Source: Gemmatimonadota bacterium
GTDB lineage: Bacteria; Gemmatimonadota; Gemmatimonadetes; Longimicrobiales; Gaopeijiaceae
Assembly: GCA_022823145.1 (NCBI GenBank)
Contig: JAJDXS010000016.1
Coordinates: forward strand, 1-64,000
Direction: 5' to 3'
DNA length: 64,000 nucleotides
Part shown: piece by piece, positions 337 through 8,899 of the stretch
Position numbering within the stretch: position 1 is the stretch's first letter
How the letters are laid out: each line of letters starts with the position of its first letter
Made by a program: the position numbers and the translations under genes
Notes under the pieces: generated by a model
What the model was told of the DNA's origin: nothing
What the model saw: only the letters and a program-made list of their open reading frames with translations
Database searches by the model: none

Positions 337-1023
337 ATGGAAAAGACAAGAGACATCGACGTGGAAGCGCCCGGCACTCTGCTGGTGAGGGTTATGGACG
401 GCGTATCCGGAGATCCGATCGGGGGGGCCCTGGTGTCGCTGGCGGAGGGGCAAAGCCGACTCAGCGACCTGGACGGGCTGGCGGTGTTCGGGGATCTTCG
501 GGATCCCGTTGTCCGATTCGAGGTGGAGTCGGCCGGCTACGGCAAACGCGCCGCACCCGTGGCGCTCAGCCCGGACCGGACCACTGCTGCCAGGGTCGAG
601 ATGATGGTCGAAACGGCTGCACCCAGACCGGTCGAAACCGAAATACGTTCCCTGCACATGGCAGGGGACGGCATCCATGACAACATGAACCGGTACGGAA
701 AGCGGACGTACGTGGTCACCCGACCCATGCTCGACGAACTTGCCCCTGCCCAGCTTACCGACGTGTTCAGGAAGGTGCCGGGCATCCGCGTCGGATCTCT
801 CGCATCGGGGTCGCCCCACCTCTACCTCGGACAATGCAACCAGCGCGTCTCGCTGTACCTGGACGGGTTCCCGCGACGGACCAGTGGCCGCGTTCAGGGA
901 AGATTGTTCATCGACGACATTGCGCCGGAATCCGTGGAGTTGATCGAGCTTTGGGAGAGGCGCCGCAACCGGGCGTGCGGAGGTTGGGTGCTCATCTGGA
1001 CCACCCGGCAGGGAGCGGGTTGA
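337..1023 (+). CDS. stand-alone TonB-plug protein with carboxypeptidase-regulatory-like domain
   Basis: 228 aa from an ATG directly abutting the upstream TAA in the same frame. Residues about 12-90 form a second carboxypeptidase-regulatory-like beta-sandwich (GTLLVRVMDGVSGDPIGGA, then DLDGLAVF). Residues about 125-225 resemble a TonB-receptor plug (RPMLDELAPAQLTDVFRKVPG, FIDDIAPESVELIELWE). There is no beta-barrel, so it cannot be a transporter alone. Proteins with this architecture are common beside secreted propeller proteins in Gemmatimonadota; their role is unknown. As it stands it lacks a signal peptide, which supports the view that the true start lay in the upstream fragment. The stop TGA (1021-1023) overlaps the TTG start of the next gene. 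The domain call is good; whether the gene is functional is unclear. Confidence 0.6.
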   Translation: MEKTRDIDVEAPGTLLVRVMDGVSGDPIGGALVSLAEGQSRLSDLDGLAVFGDLRDPVVRFEVESAGYGKRAAPVALSPDRTTAARVEMMVETAAPRPVETEIRSLHMAGDGIHDNMNRYGKRTYVVTRPMLDELAPAQLTDVFRKVPGIRVGSLASGSPHLYLGQCNQRVSLYLDGFPRRTSGRVQGRLFIDDIAPESVELIELWERRRNRACGGWVLIWTTRQGAG

Positions 1024-1709
1024 CGCGCAGGGCAGTGGTTGCCCGGACCGAAGGCTTCGCCTGGCGCCTGCGGGGGCATCTCTATCGGCGAGTCCGCGAC
1101 AGCGGGGCAATACCGACCCGAGCCGAGCTCGCCAACCAACCGGGCACAACCGACACCGAGGTCGACGACGCCCTGCGCTTCCTCGCCGACTCCCACGTTC
1201 TGGTCCTGGACCAGCAAGGCGAAGTCCTGATGGCCCATCCCTTTTCCGCCGTTCCCACCCCCTACCGGGTCGAGACGGCGGCGCGTACGTACTGGGCCAA
1301 CTGTGCCTGGGACGCGATCGCGATCCCCATCCTGCTCGATACCGACGGGCGCACGCCGACGACCTGCCCGGGTTCGGGCGAGCGCTTCGAACTCACCGTG
1401 ACGGGAGGCCACCTTCGCCCCGCGGGCGCCGTCGTCCGCCTGGCGGTCCCCGTGCGCCACTTCTGGGACGACATCGGCTTCACATGACGCAACATCGTGG
1501 CCTTCCGGTCGGAGGGGGATGCGACAGCGTGGGAGCGGGGGCGGGGCGAGGATCCCGGTGCCATCGTGCCGGTCGAGGTGCTGGGCGAGATGAGCCGGAG
1601 CTGGTACGGGGGGCGGCTGGAGGACCAATGGCGGCCGTATTCGGCTGCCGCGAAGCAGGGACTGCTTCGGGATGCCGGGCTGAGCGGCGAGTTCTGGGAG
1701 TTGAGGTGA
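1020..1709 (+). CDS. merB: MerB-family organomercurial (alkylmercury) lyase, candidate selenoprotein with in-frame UGA at the catalytic Cys159 position
   Basis: Reading UGA 1485-1487 as Sec gives 229 aa with Sec at residue 156. The N-terminal part is a winged-helix region (residues 20-70), followed by the MerB core. NCAWDAIAIP matches WCALDTLIFP of plasmid R831b MerB, so the equivalents of Cys96 and Asp99 are present. Aligned without gaps, D-D-I-G-F-T-Sec-R-N-I-V-A-F-R-S matches D-V-R-Q-S-F-C159-C-H-V-H-F-F-A-S, so UGA falls on catalytic Cys159. After UGA the frame continues with family sequence (WYGGRLEDQW, GLSGEFWELR) to TGA 1707-1709. MerB cleaves the C-Hg bond and passes Hg(II) between its cysteines. 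The start is TTG 1020, with GGGAG four bases upstream and overlapping the previous stop; GTG 1035 is an alternative. A degraded gene is the other reading, but the hairpin after UGA and the intact C-terminus argue against it. Confidence 0.78.
1485..1520 (+). promoter_or_regulatory. candidate bacterial SECIS element of the MerB-like gene
   Basis: Directly after UGA 1485-1487, CCTTCC (1501-1506) pairs with GGAGGG (1511-1516), including one G-U pair, around a GGTC tetraloop (1507-1510). Outside it CATC (1493-1496) can pair with GATG (1518-1521). The loop starts 19 nt after UGA. The E. coli fdhF SECIS also presents GGUC in its apical loop, 18 nt after UGA. The match is by eye; no folding energy was computed. 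Confidence 0.65.
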
Positions 1710-5230: not shown

Positions 5231-6361
5231 ATGAGACGCCTGCCAACCGCGTTCCTGCTGGCGGCAAGCGCTCAGCCGGTGTGGGGGCAGATGGACACCC
5301 TGGACCTGTCCAGAGACGCGGTCGCGACGGTGGTCCCCGCGGAATACGACGGCGGCTTCTTTGCGCGAATCGGCGACGTCGTGGTCAACGACCTCGGAGT
5401 CTGGGTAGGCGACGCCGGGAACAATGAGGTCCTGTGGTTCGACACGGGCGGAAACCTGCTGTCCAGCTACGGCCGTGAGGGGAGCGGACCCGGCGAATGG
5501 ATGAACCCGGGGATCGTCAGCATCGACTCCATACTCACCGTCGGTGATGCGCGACAAGGTCGGTACGTCCGCTATTCGTTGGACGGTCGCCATCTGGAGA
5601 CGGTGCGGGCACAACGCTTCGCCGCCCCGGGCGGCGGCGAGAAACCACTCGTCGACGCTGTGCCGCTGGCGGGTGGATTCACGGTCGGCATGATTCCCGC
5701 AAACTACCGCATCTCCTTCCCACGAGAAGCTCTCTACGATCTGCGCAACCACGTCGTTCTCCTGGCGCCAGGAGGGGAGCCGGCCGACACGCTCCTTTCC
5801 TTCCACTGGGGAGAAGCGGGTTGGACGACAAACGTGGTGGGAGCCGTCCAGTCCACCCACTTCGGCGCAGCCGGAGCCTGGAGCGTGCTCGGCGACACGG
5901 CCGTGGTTCTCGCTGACGGGATCGCCGGGACCCTCACGATCGTCTCCCCGCAAGCGGGGTTGGTCCGGGGCGAAACCATCGATCTGGAATTCGCGGGGCG
6001 TGCGGTGACCGAATCGGACCTGGAGGACCTGGAGGAGGACATCCGGGGACGCTTCGATGAAGATCTTCCGCGAGAGATGGAGATCGACGCACCTGGATAC
6101 TGGTCCGTCGCGACATACGTCATCCCGGCCAGTGACCGCGTCTTCTGGCTGCGTCAGGGCGTCGTCGACGAGCGACAGCACTGGGCCGTCGTAGATATCG
6201 GAACAATGCGGAAGCGGCTGGTGATTCTCCCTGAGCGATTCCGGTTGACCGCCATCCACGGCGGTCTCCTCTACGGCGTGGCCAGGGATGAGCTGGATGT
6301 CCCCAGCGTGGGTGCGATGGTGAACCCGGTCAGGACCGATCCGTCTCCGGAGCCTGAATGA
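5231..6361 (+). CDS. secreted 6-bladed beta-propeller protein
   Basis: 376 aa with an N-terminal signal peptide (RRLPTAFLLAASAQPVWGQ). NHL/6-bladed-propeller features include WVGDAGNNEVLWFD, then GREGSGPGEW, the G-x-G-P-G-E-F/W signature of Gemmatimonadota propeller proteins. The rest is divergent from the two paralogues downstream. It starts 7 bases after the BNR gene and overlaps the next gene by ATGA at 6358-6361, so the four genes from 1786 to 8899 look co-transcribed. No catalytic residues are recognised. A ligand-binding or protein-scaffolding role in the periplasm is only inference. Confidence 0.75.
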   Translation: MRRLPTAFLLAASAQPVWGQMDTLDLSRDAVATVVPAEYDGGFFARIGDVVVNDLGVWVGDAGNNEVLWFDTGGNLLSSYGREGSGPGEWMNPGIVSIDSILTVGDARQGRYVRYSLDGRHLETVRAQRFAAPGGGEKPLVDAVPLAGGFTVGMIPANYRISFPREALYDLRNHVVLLAPGGEPADTLLSFHWGEAGWTTNVVGAVQSTHFGAAGAWSVLGDTAVVLADGIAGTLTIVSPQAGLVRGETIDLEFAGRAVTESDLEDLEEDIRGRFDEDLPREMEIDAPGYWSVATYVIPASDRVFWLRQGVVDERQHWAVVDIGTMRKRLVILPERFRLTAIHGGLLYGVARDELDVPSVGAMVNPVRTDPSPEPE

Positions 6362-7623
6362 ACGGCGCACATCCTTCGCTCCCGACTGTAGCCGCGATCC
6401 TCCTGACAGCGTCCGCCTGCGACAAGGCCCCCGCGCGTATACACACCACACAAACCGACTCTGCCGGGATCCCGATCGTGACCTCCGCCGCGCCTGCGTG
6501 GGGACCGGCCGATGGCTGGACGGTCGATGCGGAGCCGCTCGTCGAGATCGGGACGGTCACTGGCGCACCCGTGTACCAGTTCAGCGACGTCGTGGCAGCC
6601 GTGCGCTTGAGCAACGGCAACATCGTGGTCGCGGACCGGGGAGCTTCGGAACTGCGGAGCTACGACGCGGCGGGAACATCCCAATGGGTTGTCGGCCGGG
6701 CAGGGGAGGGACCCGGCGAATTCCGGAGCCTCGACTTCCTCGGCACCACGGCGGGGGACTCGCTGGTGACCTACGACAGGCGGCTGCTGCGCGTGCAGCT
6801 CTTCGATGGCGATGGGGGGTTGGGACGAACGATCAGGGTGGCTCTTCCGCGCCGGGATGCGGCACCGGGTGGCTCGGCTCCCGACAAGGCGGTCGGCTTG
6901 GCAGACGGGCACCTGGTCGTCCGCTTCATAGAGGAGTCAAGCAACACCGGGACCGGTATCCTGCGCTGGCTCAACGAGCGCATCGTTGCCGTCGATCTGA
7001 AAGATGGCTCCGCCGCCGCGCTGATTGTGGCCCCGGGCCCACAGGTGGACGCCAAGCCACGCGAGGGCGGCGGCGTATACCGGGACCGGTACATGTTCAA
7101 CAAGACGCCGCAGTTCGGTGCCGCAGCGGACGCGGTCGCGGTCATCGACACGGAAGCCTGGTCCGTGCAGGTGCTGTCCCCGGTCGACGGCACGACCGAG
7201 CGCATCGTCCGGCGCGAAATAGTGCCCATTGAATCCACCGACGCACACGTCGAATCTCACGTCCAGGGCATCCTGGACCTGCTCCCGGACGACGCCCCGG
7301 CCGAGCAGGTGGATTTCGTCGAACAGATGTGGCGCGGCTACCGCAGAGCGCCGGCACTCCCCGTCCTCCGCTCCATCCACGTCGATGCGGCCGGACACCT
7401 CTGGCTGGCACCCTACTACCTGACCGGCGCCGACCCGCCTCCCTTCGAGATCCATGCCCCCGACGGCACGTGGCTGGGCAGCGTCTCCGCGCCGCCCGGG
7501 CTCCAGCGGGCCTTCATCCCCTATCAGGATCCCTACATGGAGATCGGCGACAACTACATTCTGGGCGTCTGGACGGACGACCTGGATGTTCAGTACGTGC
7601 GGATGTACAGGATCAACAAGTAG
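6358..7623 (+). CDS. 6-bladed beta-propeller lipoprotein, tandem paralogue 1
   Basis: 421 aa. The N-terminus AAILLTASAC fits a lipoprotein signal with the acylated Cys near residue 21. The propeller contains IVVADRGASELRSYD and GRAGEGPGEF, and ends in a conserved block (APYYLTGADPPPFEIHAPDG, ILGVWTDDLDVQYVR). It is closely related, in protein and DNA, to the next gene, so the two arose by a fairly recent tandem duplication. It starts inside the previous stop (ATGA). Function unknown; family membership is clear from the GEGPGEF signature. Confidence 0.8.
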   Translation: MNGAHPSLPTVAAILLTASACDKAPARIHTTQTDSAGIPIVTSAAPAWGPADGWTVDAEPLVEIGTVTGAPVYQFSDVVAAVRLSNGNIVVADRGASELRSYDAAGTSQWVVGRAGEGPGEFRSLDFLGTTAGDSLVTYDRRLLRVQLFDGDGGLGRTIRVALPRRDAAPGGSAPDKAVGLADGHLVVRFIEESSNTGTGILRWLNERIVAVDLKDGSAAALIVAPGPQVDAKPREGGGVYRDRYMFNKTPQFGAAADAVAVIDTEAWSVQVLSPVDGTTERIVRREIVPIESTDAHVESHVQGILDLLPDDAPAEQVDFVEQMWRGYRRAPALPVLRSIHVDAAGHLWLAPYYLTGADPPPFEIHAPDGTWLGSVSAPPGLQRAFIPYQDPYMEIGDNYILGVWTDDLDVQYVRMYRINK

Positions 7624-7630
7624 CCGGCCA

Positions 7631-8899
7631 ATGCCCGCCCAAGGACCTGCACTCCCCGCATTCTTCGCACTCGCAGGCCTGGTTGCCACTGCCGCCTGCG
7701 ACACTGCCCCCGCATTAATACACACTATACACACCGACTCGGCCGGCATCTCCATCGTCACCTCCGCCGCGCCGCAATGGGGGCCCGACGAGCGCTGGAC
7801 GGTCGACGCGGAGCCGCTCGTCGAGATAGGGGCGGTTACTGGCGCACCCGAATACCAGTTCAGTGAAGTCGTGGCGGCCGTGCGTTTGAGCAACGGTGAC
7901 ATCGTGGTCGCGGACCGGGGCGCTTCGGAACTGCGGAGCTACGACGCAGGGGGGAACTTCCAGTGGAGTGCGGGACGGTTCGGGGAAGGGCCGGGCGAAT
8001 TCGAGAGCCTGGACTACGTGGGCGTCATGGCCGGAGACTCCCTGGTGACGCACGACGCAACTCTGTTGCGCGCGCAAGTCTTCGGCCCACACGGGGAGCT
8101 GGCCAGGATGTTCCGTGTGGCGATCACGGAAGGCGCCGGAGAGGGGGCTGTGGCCGACAAGGCGGTCGGCGTTGTGGACGGCCTCCTCGTCGTGCGCTTG
8201 CTTGAGTACGGTGACCTGGACGAAATGCCCACCGGGATCGTCCGGTGGCCGCAGGTGCGCCTGGCGGCGCTGGACCTCGGGGACGGAGCGGTCAGGTCGC
8301 TGGCGGTGCTGCCGGGACACGAGGGGCATGTGCGGATCGATGGGGACCGCTGGTCGCACGGCCGGTACGTGTTCGCGAAGGGGCCGGAGTTCGCCGCCGC
8401 GGCCCGGAGTCTCGCGGTCATCGACACGGAAGCCTGGTCAGTGAGCCTGGTCTCCCCCCGCGACGGCGCGATCTACGCGGTGTACAGGCGCGATGTGCCA
8501 CCCCGCGAAGCCACCACCGCCCTCCTCGATCTGCATGTGGACGGCATCCTGGACCTGCTCCCGGACGACGCTCCGGCGGAGCAAGTGGATCTCGTCGAAC
8601 AGATGTGGCGCGACAGGCCCCGAGCGCCGGCACTCCCCGTCCTCCGCTCCATCCACGTCGACGCGACCGGATACCTCTGGCTGGCCCCCTACTACGTGGC
8701 CGGCGCCCACCCTCCCCCCTTCGAGGTCCACGCCCCCGACGGCACCTGGCTGGGCAGCGTCTCCGTTCCGCCCGGACTCCAGCGGGCCTTCATCCAGTAC
8801 CAGGCACCCTACATGGAGATCGGCGAGGACTACATCCTCGGGGTCTGGACGGACGATCTGGACGTGCAGTACGTGCGGCAGTACCGGATCAACAAGTAG
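7631..8899 (+). CDS. 6-bladed beta-propeller lipoprotein, tandem paralogue 2
   Basis: 422 aa from ATG 7631, which puts a lipoprotein-type signal (FFALAGLVATAAC) at the N-terminus; longer upstream reading is a shadow of the preceding gene. It shares long stretches with the preceding paralogue: WTVDAEPLVEIG, VVAAVRLSNG, DIVVADRGASELRSYDA, PALPVLRSIHVDA and QYVRxYRINK. The middle, about residues 150-260, has diverged most, which may mark the surface that differs in specificity. It is the last gene of the apparent operon starting at 1786. No enzymatic motif is recognised. Confidence 0.8.
   Translation: MPAQGPALPAFFALAGLVATAACDTAPALIHTIHTDSAGISIVTSAAPQWGPDERWTVDAEPLVEIGAVTGAPEYQFSEVVAAVRLSNGDIVVADRGASELRSYDAGGNFQWSAGRFGEGPGEFESLDYVGVMAGDSLVTHDATLLRAQVFGPHGELARMFRVAITEGAGEGAVADKAVGVVDGLLVVRLLEYGDLDEMPTGIVRWPQVRLAALDLGDGAVRSLAVLPGHEGHVRIDGDRWSHGRYVFAKGPEFAAAARSLAVIDTEAWSVSLVSPRDGAIYAVYRRDVPPREATTALLDLHVDGILDLLPDDAPAEQVDLVEQMWRDRPRAPALPVLRSIHVDATGYLWLAPYYVAGAHPPPFEVHAPDGTWLGSVSVPPGLQRAFIQYQAPYMEIGEDYILGVWTDDLDVQYVRQYRINK

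Follow-up and report, generated by a model that had tools for sequence, protein, structure and literature searches.

A MerB-like protein with a predicted selenocysteine at the catalytic Cys159 position in Gemmatimonadota and other bacterial phyla

Introduction

Methylmercury cleavage is the textbook reaction of MerB, and mercury has a higher affinity for selenium than for sulfur. A MerB relative, SaoL, was reportedly named by Haft and Gwadz in 2023. A passage of PMC4525700 on MerB places Cys96, Cys159 and Asp99 around the bound Hg, with a proton passing to Cys159 or Asp99 during metal removal, and a passage of a mer-gene survey stresses the strict conservation of Cys159 (PMC8261052). SaoL is entered in a table of PMC13188914 as a MerB-like selenoprotein with the motif CU; the accession given there appears in a table of PMC9312934 as 'alkylmercury lyase MerB-like protein', and a table of PMC7435645 includes a selenoprotein 'organic mercuric lyase MerB2'. 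In the Geodermatophilaceae, UAG is decoded as selenocysteine (Sec) in FDH, the UGSC protein and AhpC by a tRNA-Sec(CUA), as described in a passage of PMC5330540. A literature search, with supplements outside its scope and an earlier mention therefore possible, identified no description of a MerB with Sec at Cys159, and a word search for MerB found none in the main texts of PMC2398784 and PMC5029168 and none in PMC12013277.

The present analysis concerns a reading frame in the window, that is, the whole stretch of 64,000 nucleotides of Gemmatimonadota DNA that was analyzed. Judged from sequence comparison, the protein with the in-frame TGA is very likely, indeed close to certain, to be a selenoprotein. 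The complete explanation is assigned a probability of about 0.75: a MerB-superfamily selenoprotein whose Sec159 is decoded by the organism's own machinery and whose Cys96, Asp99 and Sec159 are predicted to carry out organometal chemistry. Within it, action as a lyase on organometals is likely and organomercury is a plausible substrate.

Results

A MerB-like reading frame with an internal TGA

The frame listed in Table 1 encodes a MerB homologue that reads LTRRAVV...NCAWD...DIGFT-U-RNIVAFRSE...FWELR, where U marks the single in-frame TGA and 73 sense codons follow it. The probable start, TTG 1020, overlaps the stop codon of the upstream gene (TGA 1021-1023), with GTG 1035 as the alternative. 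With the TGA read through, the translation scores 93.2 bits against the PF03243 profile (curated cut-off 27). In the genome search the profile spans the internal TGA with an E-value of 7.5e-24, and the locus is the sole PF03243 match in the genome. Alignment of a profile of 37 relatives to MerB in the PDB places the Sec column on the Cys of 'SFCSHVHFF', in agreement with the assignment of NCAWD and the TGA to the Cys96, Asp99 and Cys159 positions. The original prediction of a MerB-like frame that is interrupted by UGA at Cys159 and resumes in frame, with the equivalents of Cys96 and Asp99 kept, is thus confirmed by the profile match across the TGA and by the profile alignment.

Table 1 Features of the Sec-MerB locus in the window.
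Feature	Position	Strand	Basis or remark
Sec-MerB coding sequence	1020..1706	+	229 codons from TTG 1020; stop TGA 1707-1709
TGT, Cys at MerB Cys96 position	1302..1304	+	alignment
GAC, Asp at MerB Asp99 position	1311..1313	+	alignment
TGC, Cys at conserved column taken as MerB Cys117 position	1365..1367	+	alignment
In-frame TGA, predicted to be read as Sec, MerB Cys159 position	1485..1487	+	alignment, codon alternation
Bacterial SECIS apical hairpin, CCTTCC - GGTC - GGAGGG; encodes part of FRSE	1501..1516 (arms 1501-1506 and 1511-1516, loop 1507-1510)	+	conservation in relatives

The AlphaFold2 model, with Sec modelled as Cys, has a mean pLDDT of 96.1. All 11 Foldseek matches with E-values up to 0.001 are MerB or MerB2 (query TM 0.45-0.66), and the match to 3f2f has an E-value of 7.6e-11 and a query TM of 0.60. 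Two residues of the MerB catalytic triad, Cys96 and Asp99, are kept in the window protein, and the third position is occupied by the predicted Sec instead of Cys. The protein falls below the NCBIfam cut-offs for MerB, which are of the equivalog/exception type (NF009710, 59.7 versus 193 bits; NF033555, 51.6 versus 200 bits), and none of the 8 Sec forms tried exceeds the cut-off of any naming model in NCBIfam release 20.

Codons at the Cys159 column

PF03243 matches were found in 81 of 395 Gemmatimonadota genomes. Five short or weak matches were left out (G271:C13, G235, G175 and two in G043), and 83 loci were read, 84 with the window. The Cys159 column contains TGA in 51 of these and TGC or TGT in 31, and is not reached in 2. 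The TGA loci belong to 51 separate genomes, and all 51 keep both Cys96 and Asp99. A scan of species genomes yielded 247 relatives, the best 80 of which were taken; every one of these 80 has a stop codon at the Cys159 column (75 TGA, 5 TAG). Ranking by similarity to the window Sec protein biases the Sec share of the 80 upward, so that the Gemmatimonadota set provides the unbiased count, and the scan pattern demands C..WD, which makes the presence of Cys96 and Asp99 in these loci partly a matter of construction. The best 80 derive from Gemmatimonadota, Acidobacteriota, Chloroflexota, Actinomycetota, KSB1, Marinimicrobia and Calditrichia, and two are labelled Gammaproteobacteria. The latter (L103 and L105) seem mislabelled, as their contigs are equal in length to G086:C113 and G225:C145, both placed in the window's Gemmatimonadota family.

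After removal of identical DNA, 144 distinct loci carry TGA (106), TAG (5), TGC (25) or TGT (6) at this column, and two (L084 and L089) end short of it. The sense codons among the 142 loci that cover the column are Cys codons only, which bears out the expectation that homologues carry UGA or Cys there (106 and 31 of 144, respectively). Clustering at 70% identity groups the 111 Sec loci into 74 clusters, the median pairwise identity between clusters being 40%, and 104 of the 111 have Cys at the Cys117-type column. The 144-locus count omits the double-Sec and MerA-like loci described below and 52 further loci, mostly actinobacterial and including some repeats of named ones, of which 22 have TGA, 29 have Cys and 1 is unaligned. 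A scan of viral contigs gave 11 pattern matches, none of them a relative, and PADLOC returned no match. The Sec-MerB gene lies on contigs of 4.1-4.8 Mb in four genomes (G017, G058, G075 and G166); the gene stands alone and, at least on contigs of genome size, is chromosomal.

Random further stops in homologues had been named beforehand as a sign against the prediction, and a single Sec locus of the 111 has one in the domain. In that locus (L083, in G075) the second TGA is away from any catalytic column, and L250 (G772) has a second stop or an irregular frame; each is perhaps a decaying gene or a sequencing error. A classic Cys MerB (L014) contains TAG elsewhere in the domain. The genome of Nocardioides sp. 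zg-1230 (G400; L132, L215) contains, besides a stop-free classic MerB, a pair of equally scoring PF03243 matches (C4 and C8) that each have one TGA.

A tree of 82 rows, calculated with the two trait columns removed, separates the classic Cys MerB proteins from the clade of Sec forms with an SH-aLRT of 99, in a split that also includes the long-branch Cys row L062. Nested within the Sec clade (SH-aLRT 99) is a Cys clade that has Cys in place of Asp99, and from this position Sec was probably lost there together with Asp99. The loss of Sec thus seems to go with an altered third active-site residue. Two MerBs encoded on plasmids, in Sphingomonas panacis and Paraburkholderia, belong to the Cys99 type. 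Six Cys forms are nested in or near the Sec forms (L053, L086, L181, L182, L012 and L018) and have Cys in place of Asp99 where that column is covered; L086, in which column 99 is absent, was placed with the Cys99 forms by likeness.

Gene neighborhood and substrate

In the window, one neighbor of the gene encodes a protein that matches TonB-plug and, weakly, carboxypeptidase-regulatory profiles, and the other a BNR protein of the sortilin type. Elsewhere in the window, overlapping frames at 6358-7623 and 7454-8899 look like tandem paralogues of a propeller-type protein. Clustering of the neighbors of 99 Sec loci revealed no mer linkage, the largest cluster being present in 12 loci. A Pfam scan of the 96 nearest neighbors detected no family with more than three members and no mer type among the 25 commonest of 141 families; it covered 96 of 116 listed proteins, with 20 short ones left out, and single mer-type neighbors could be hidden. 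MerA is no commoner in genomes with Sec-MerB (5 of 51) than in the other Gemmatimonadota genomes (25 of 344; p 0.57), as counted from 30 listed matches over the cut-off, for which the tally gives 31. Given neither mer linkage nor an excess of MerA, a role in mercury chemistry is supported by the active site and not by the context.

These observations bear on the choice of substrate. Sec may be inserted as proposed into a protein that cleaves, or merely binds, some other metal(loid)-carbon or soft-metal compound rather than organomercury. This reading fits the missing mer linkage and MerA association, since on a single contig the classic Cys MerB adjoins MerA (G091, G270, G138) or a MerA-like gene (G148). 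It also fits the nested Cys clade, where Cys at position 99 implies that the chemistry is not fixed. However, Cys96, Asp99 and the Cys117-type residue are retained along with Sec159 on a MerB fold, and we regard a substrate other than organomercury as a substantial possibility that falls short of even odds.

Three MerA-like flavin disulfide reductases, L299 (G116:C26), L300 (G303:C11) and L301 (G148:C101), have TGA at the first redox cysteine within GGT-U-VNEGCVPTKA and score 388-405 bits, below the MerA cut-off. L301 is located just downstream of a classic Cys MerB, which combines a MerB with a Sec-containing MerA-like partner.

Relationship to SaoL

The family could alternatively represent a distant form of SaoL, with which it shares the Pfam family and which reviews list as a MerB-like selenoprotein. 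The SaoL model NF040728 gives 36.2 bits for the window protein and 14 to 61.3 bits for 11 proteins, 8 of them Sec forms, all of which miss the equivalog cut-off of 140 bits. The matches stop at positions 128-146 of the 159 in the profile, before the Sec column in the Sec forms. Moreover, the residue preceding Sec in the 111 Sec loci is Thr in 106, Ala in 3 and Asn in 2, and is Cys, as the CU motif demands, in none. On score, profile extent and motif, identity with SaoL was rejected, SaoL being compared by its profile and its review-listed motif, and the SaoL reading is improbable. The original prediction knew of no described MerB selenoprotein. As a general statement this does not hold, because SaoL is already in reviews, but the proteins described here do not pass the tests for SaoL.

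Decoding of the in-frame stop codon

The selenium machinery that was to be sought in the same genome is present in full: selA (507 bits), selB (6.7e-91), selD (381 bits) and a tRNA-Sec (selC; 78 bits) with anticodon TCA. The selD gene (L098; G000:C47:143950-144873) itself contains one in-frame TGA and looks like a selenoprotein gene. With E-values standing in for a score cut-off, SelB exceeds the cut-off in 49 of the 51 Sec-MerB genomes and, by tally, in 282 of the 395 Gemmatimonadota genomes overall; among genomes with a Cys form nested among the Sec forms it does so in 4 of 11 (p 2e-5). Both Sec-MerB genomes that fall short of the SelB cut-off are drafts, G352 with 430 contigs and G390 with 740.

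The TAG loci come from five Geodermatophilaceae, namely Modestobacter excelsi, Geodermatophilus saharensis, G. pulveris, Blastococcus saxobsidens and B. capsensis. A tRNA-Sec search in 16 genomes gave a match over the cut-off in 15 and none in G403, a Marinimicrobia genome of 1.9 Mb. The anticodon is CTA in all five TAG genomes and TCA in all ten TGA genomes having tRNA-Sec. ARAGORN labels the CTA tRNAs 'Pyl' from the anticodon, and Rfam assigns them to tRNA-Sec with 64-67 bits. Codon and anticodon switch together, TAG with CTA and TGA with TCA, and the MerB codon therefore follows the tRNA-Sec anticodon. TAG at this position had been set as evidence against Sec, and it does occur; however, it is confined to five Geodermatophilaceae in which the tRNA-Sec reads UAG, and because of this restriction it turns into support. 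The joint switch amounts to a clean natural control for Sec decoding.

The hairpin with a GGTC loop 19 nt after UGA is present as originally described, the loop beginning at the 20th base after the codon. The motif TTCCGGTCGGA, which encodes FRSE, occurs at a fixed offset after the Sec codon in 101 of 111 Sec loci, including all five with TAG, and in 0 of 31 Cys loci. Within FRSE, Arg is encoded by CGG in 109 of 111 loci and Ser by TCG in 106 of 106, whereas elsewhere in these genes the shares are 31% and 35% (Fisher 4e-50 and 7e-45, respectively, for related genes and hence draws that are not independent). Standard pairing accounts for 91.7% of cells over the seven stem pairs in 74 Sec representatives and drops to 45-62% when the 3' side is slid by 1-3 bases; the corresponding values for 23 Cys representatives are 58% and 36-63%. 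Some stem pairs have changed on both sides, as where the sixth pair goes from T-A to C-G. In L030, a Cys form that branches inside the Sec clade, TTCCGGTC is retained with the 3' arm broken, and this hairpin looks like a remnant. Folding of the 41-nt window hairpin alone, which had been suggested as a check, was not significant: at -12.1 kcal/mol (z -0.15) it is no more stable than its shuffles. Consequently, the structural case rests on conservation across relatives.

Selection was compared on the two sides of the SECIS in 421 pairs of Sec loci at 60-97% identity, of which 45 were dropped as saturated or undefined. The median dN/dS of the 376 usable pairs is 0.23 before the SECIS and 0.25 after it, and the value after it is below 1 in 376 of 376. 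Purifying selection on the coding sequence continues past the in-frame stop.

Were the TGA a true stop, the gene would be a pseudogene or would encode a truncated protein of 155 residues. An in-frame stop is indeed present, and L083 and L250 do look degenerate. However, a column restricted to TGA, TAG and Cys, a stop that tracks the tRNA-Sec anticodon and the selection downstream led us to reject this reading, which we consider highly improbable. Least probable of all is that the TGA, although read through in frame, is translated as a standard amino acid or reassigned, given that the column alternation and downstream selection apply here too, that both the Sec-MerB gene and the upstream gene terminate in TGA, that in the tested genomes the UAG form is found only together with tRNA-Sec(CUA) and that the hairpin is tied to the Sec codon; standard-amino-acid read-through was likewise rejected.

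A form with two in-frame TGA codons in actinobacteria

PF03243 matches were found in 48 of 386 Actinomycetota genomes, and three of the loci have two TGA codons. A follow-on search of 138 genomes from the order of one of these uncovered more. In total, nine distinct loci in eight actinobacterial genomes (L245, L246, L265, which is the same gene as L247, L266, L267, L269, L270, L272 and L302) have TGA at both the Cys96 and the Cys159 columns and Glu at the Asp99 column. The replacement of Asp99 by Glu in this actinobacterial subgroup is a point against the complete explanation. In four close relatives that also have Glu99, the first column reads TGT and the second TGA, so that Sec and Cys alternate at the Cys96 position as well. 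In the eight loci listed for this feature the second TGA is followed by the usual GGTC-type hairpin, and the first TGA by a different G+C-rich hairpin. A C-terminal ATPase region is present in L245, L246, L265 and L266, assigned by a scan with Pfam AAA in two of them and by likeness and length in the others; the longer C-terminal frame of L267, L269 and L270 is of a different type. A clear tRNA-Sec (TCA) was found in 10 of the 12 genomes searched for this group. The other two, G883 and G880, have only 47-48-bit matches, which ARAGORN does not call tRNA-Sec.

As a tentative extension, the Sec forms may constitute an organometal-lyase family that spans phyla, resides outside mer operons and acts on an environmental metal(loid)-carbon compound. 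The actinobacterial double-Sec proteins (Sec96/Glu99/Sec159) would be its extreme, and in the loci fused to an AAA ATPase, the ATPase may drive the release of tightly bound metal. The double-Sec form, if real, would represent a new kind of metal site.

Discussion

In the proposed mechanism, the UGA at the Cys159 position would be decoded as Sec by the organism's own SelA, SelB, SelD and tRNA-Sec, with the conserved hairpin 19 nt downstream guiding the insertion, to give a full-length MerB fold with a putative Cys96 - Asp99 - Sec159 active site. By analogy with MerB, Sec159 would be a pre-formed selenolate ligand. Deprotonated already at neutral pH, the selenolate would capture the metal of an organometal compound, organomercury being the first candidate, with Cys96 as the presumed second coordination place. 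As in MerB, cleavage of the metal-carbon bond would occur through a proton handled by Asp99. From selenium chemistry, the selenolate is expected to speed capture of the metal and to slow its release. The metal would have to be released to something other than a linked MerA, such as low-molecular thiols, or to nothing, in which case the protein would act by scavenging.

A natural MerB with selenium at the catalytic metal-binding position would permit a direct test of what selenium gains in Hg-C cleavage and in metal release. With the Sec form in 51 of 395 Gemmatimonadota genomes, surveys that require an unbroken frame or Cys159 would miss the family, and annotation is likely to overlook it, since UGA or UAG looks like the end of the gene.

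Sec-MerB is a new form in a superfamily with one selenoprotein relative already named. With MerB (PF03243; R831b structures 3f0o and 3f2f; MerB2, 5c17) the family has in common the fold, the profile, Cys96 and Asp99 and a chalcogen at position 159. It differs in having Sec for Cys159, an FRSE motif with the SECIS, no mer operon seen at the loci and, in most Sec forms, Asn instead of Trp before Cys96; identity to the solved MerB structures is ~24%. SaoL, the MerB-like organometallic lyase of the SAO system (NF040728; WP_238493467.1), is likewise a MerB relative listed as a selenoprotein, and is known here from its profile and description; its review-table motif is CU, in contrast to FT-U in the present family. 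The UAG selenoproteins of the Geodermatophilaceae share with the TAG loci of Sec-MerB a tRNA-Sec with anticodon CUA and a UAG at the Sec site. The passage of PMC5330540 does not name MerB, for which five UAG loci were found here.
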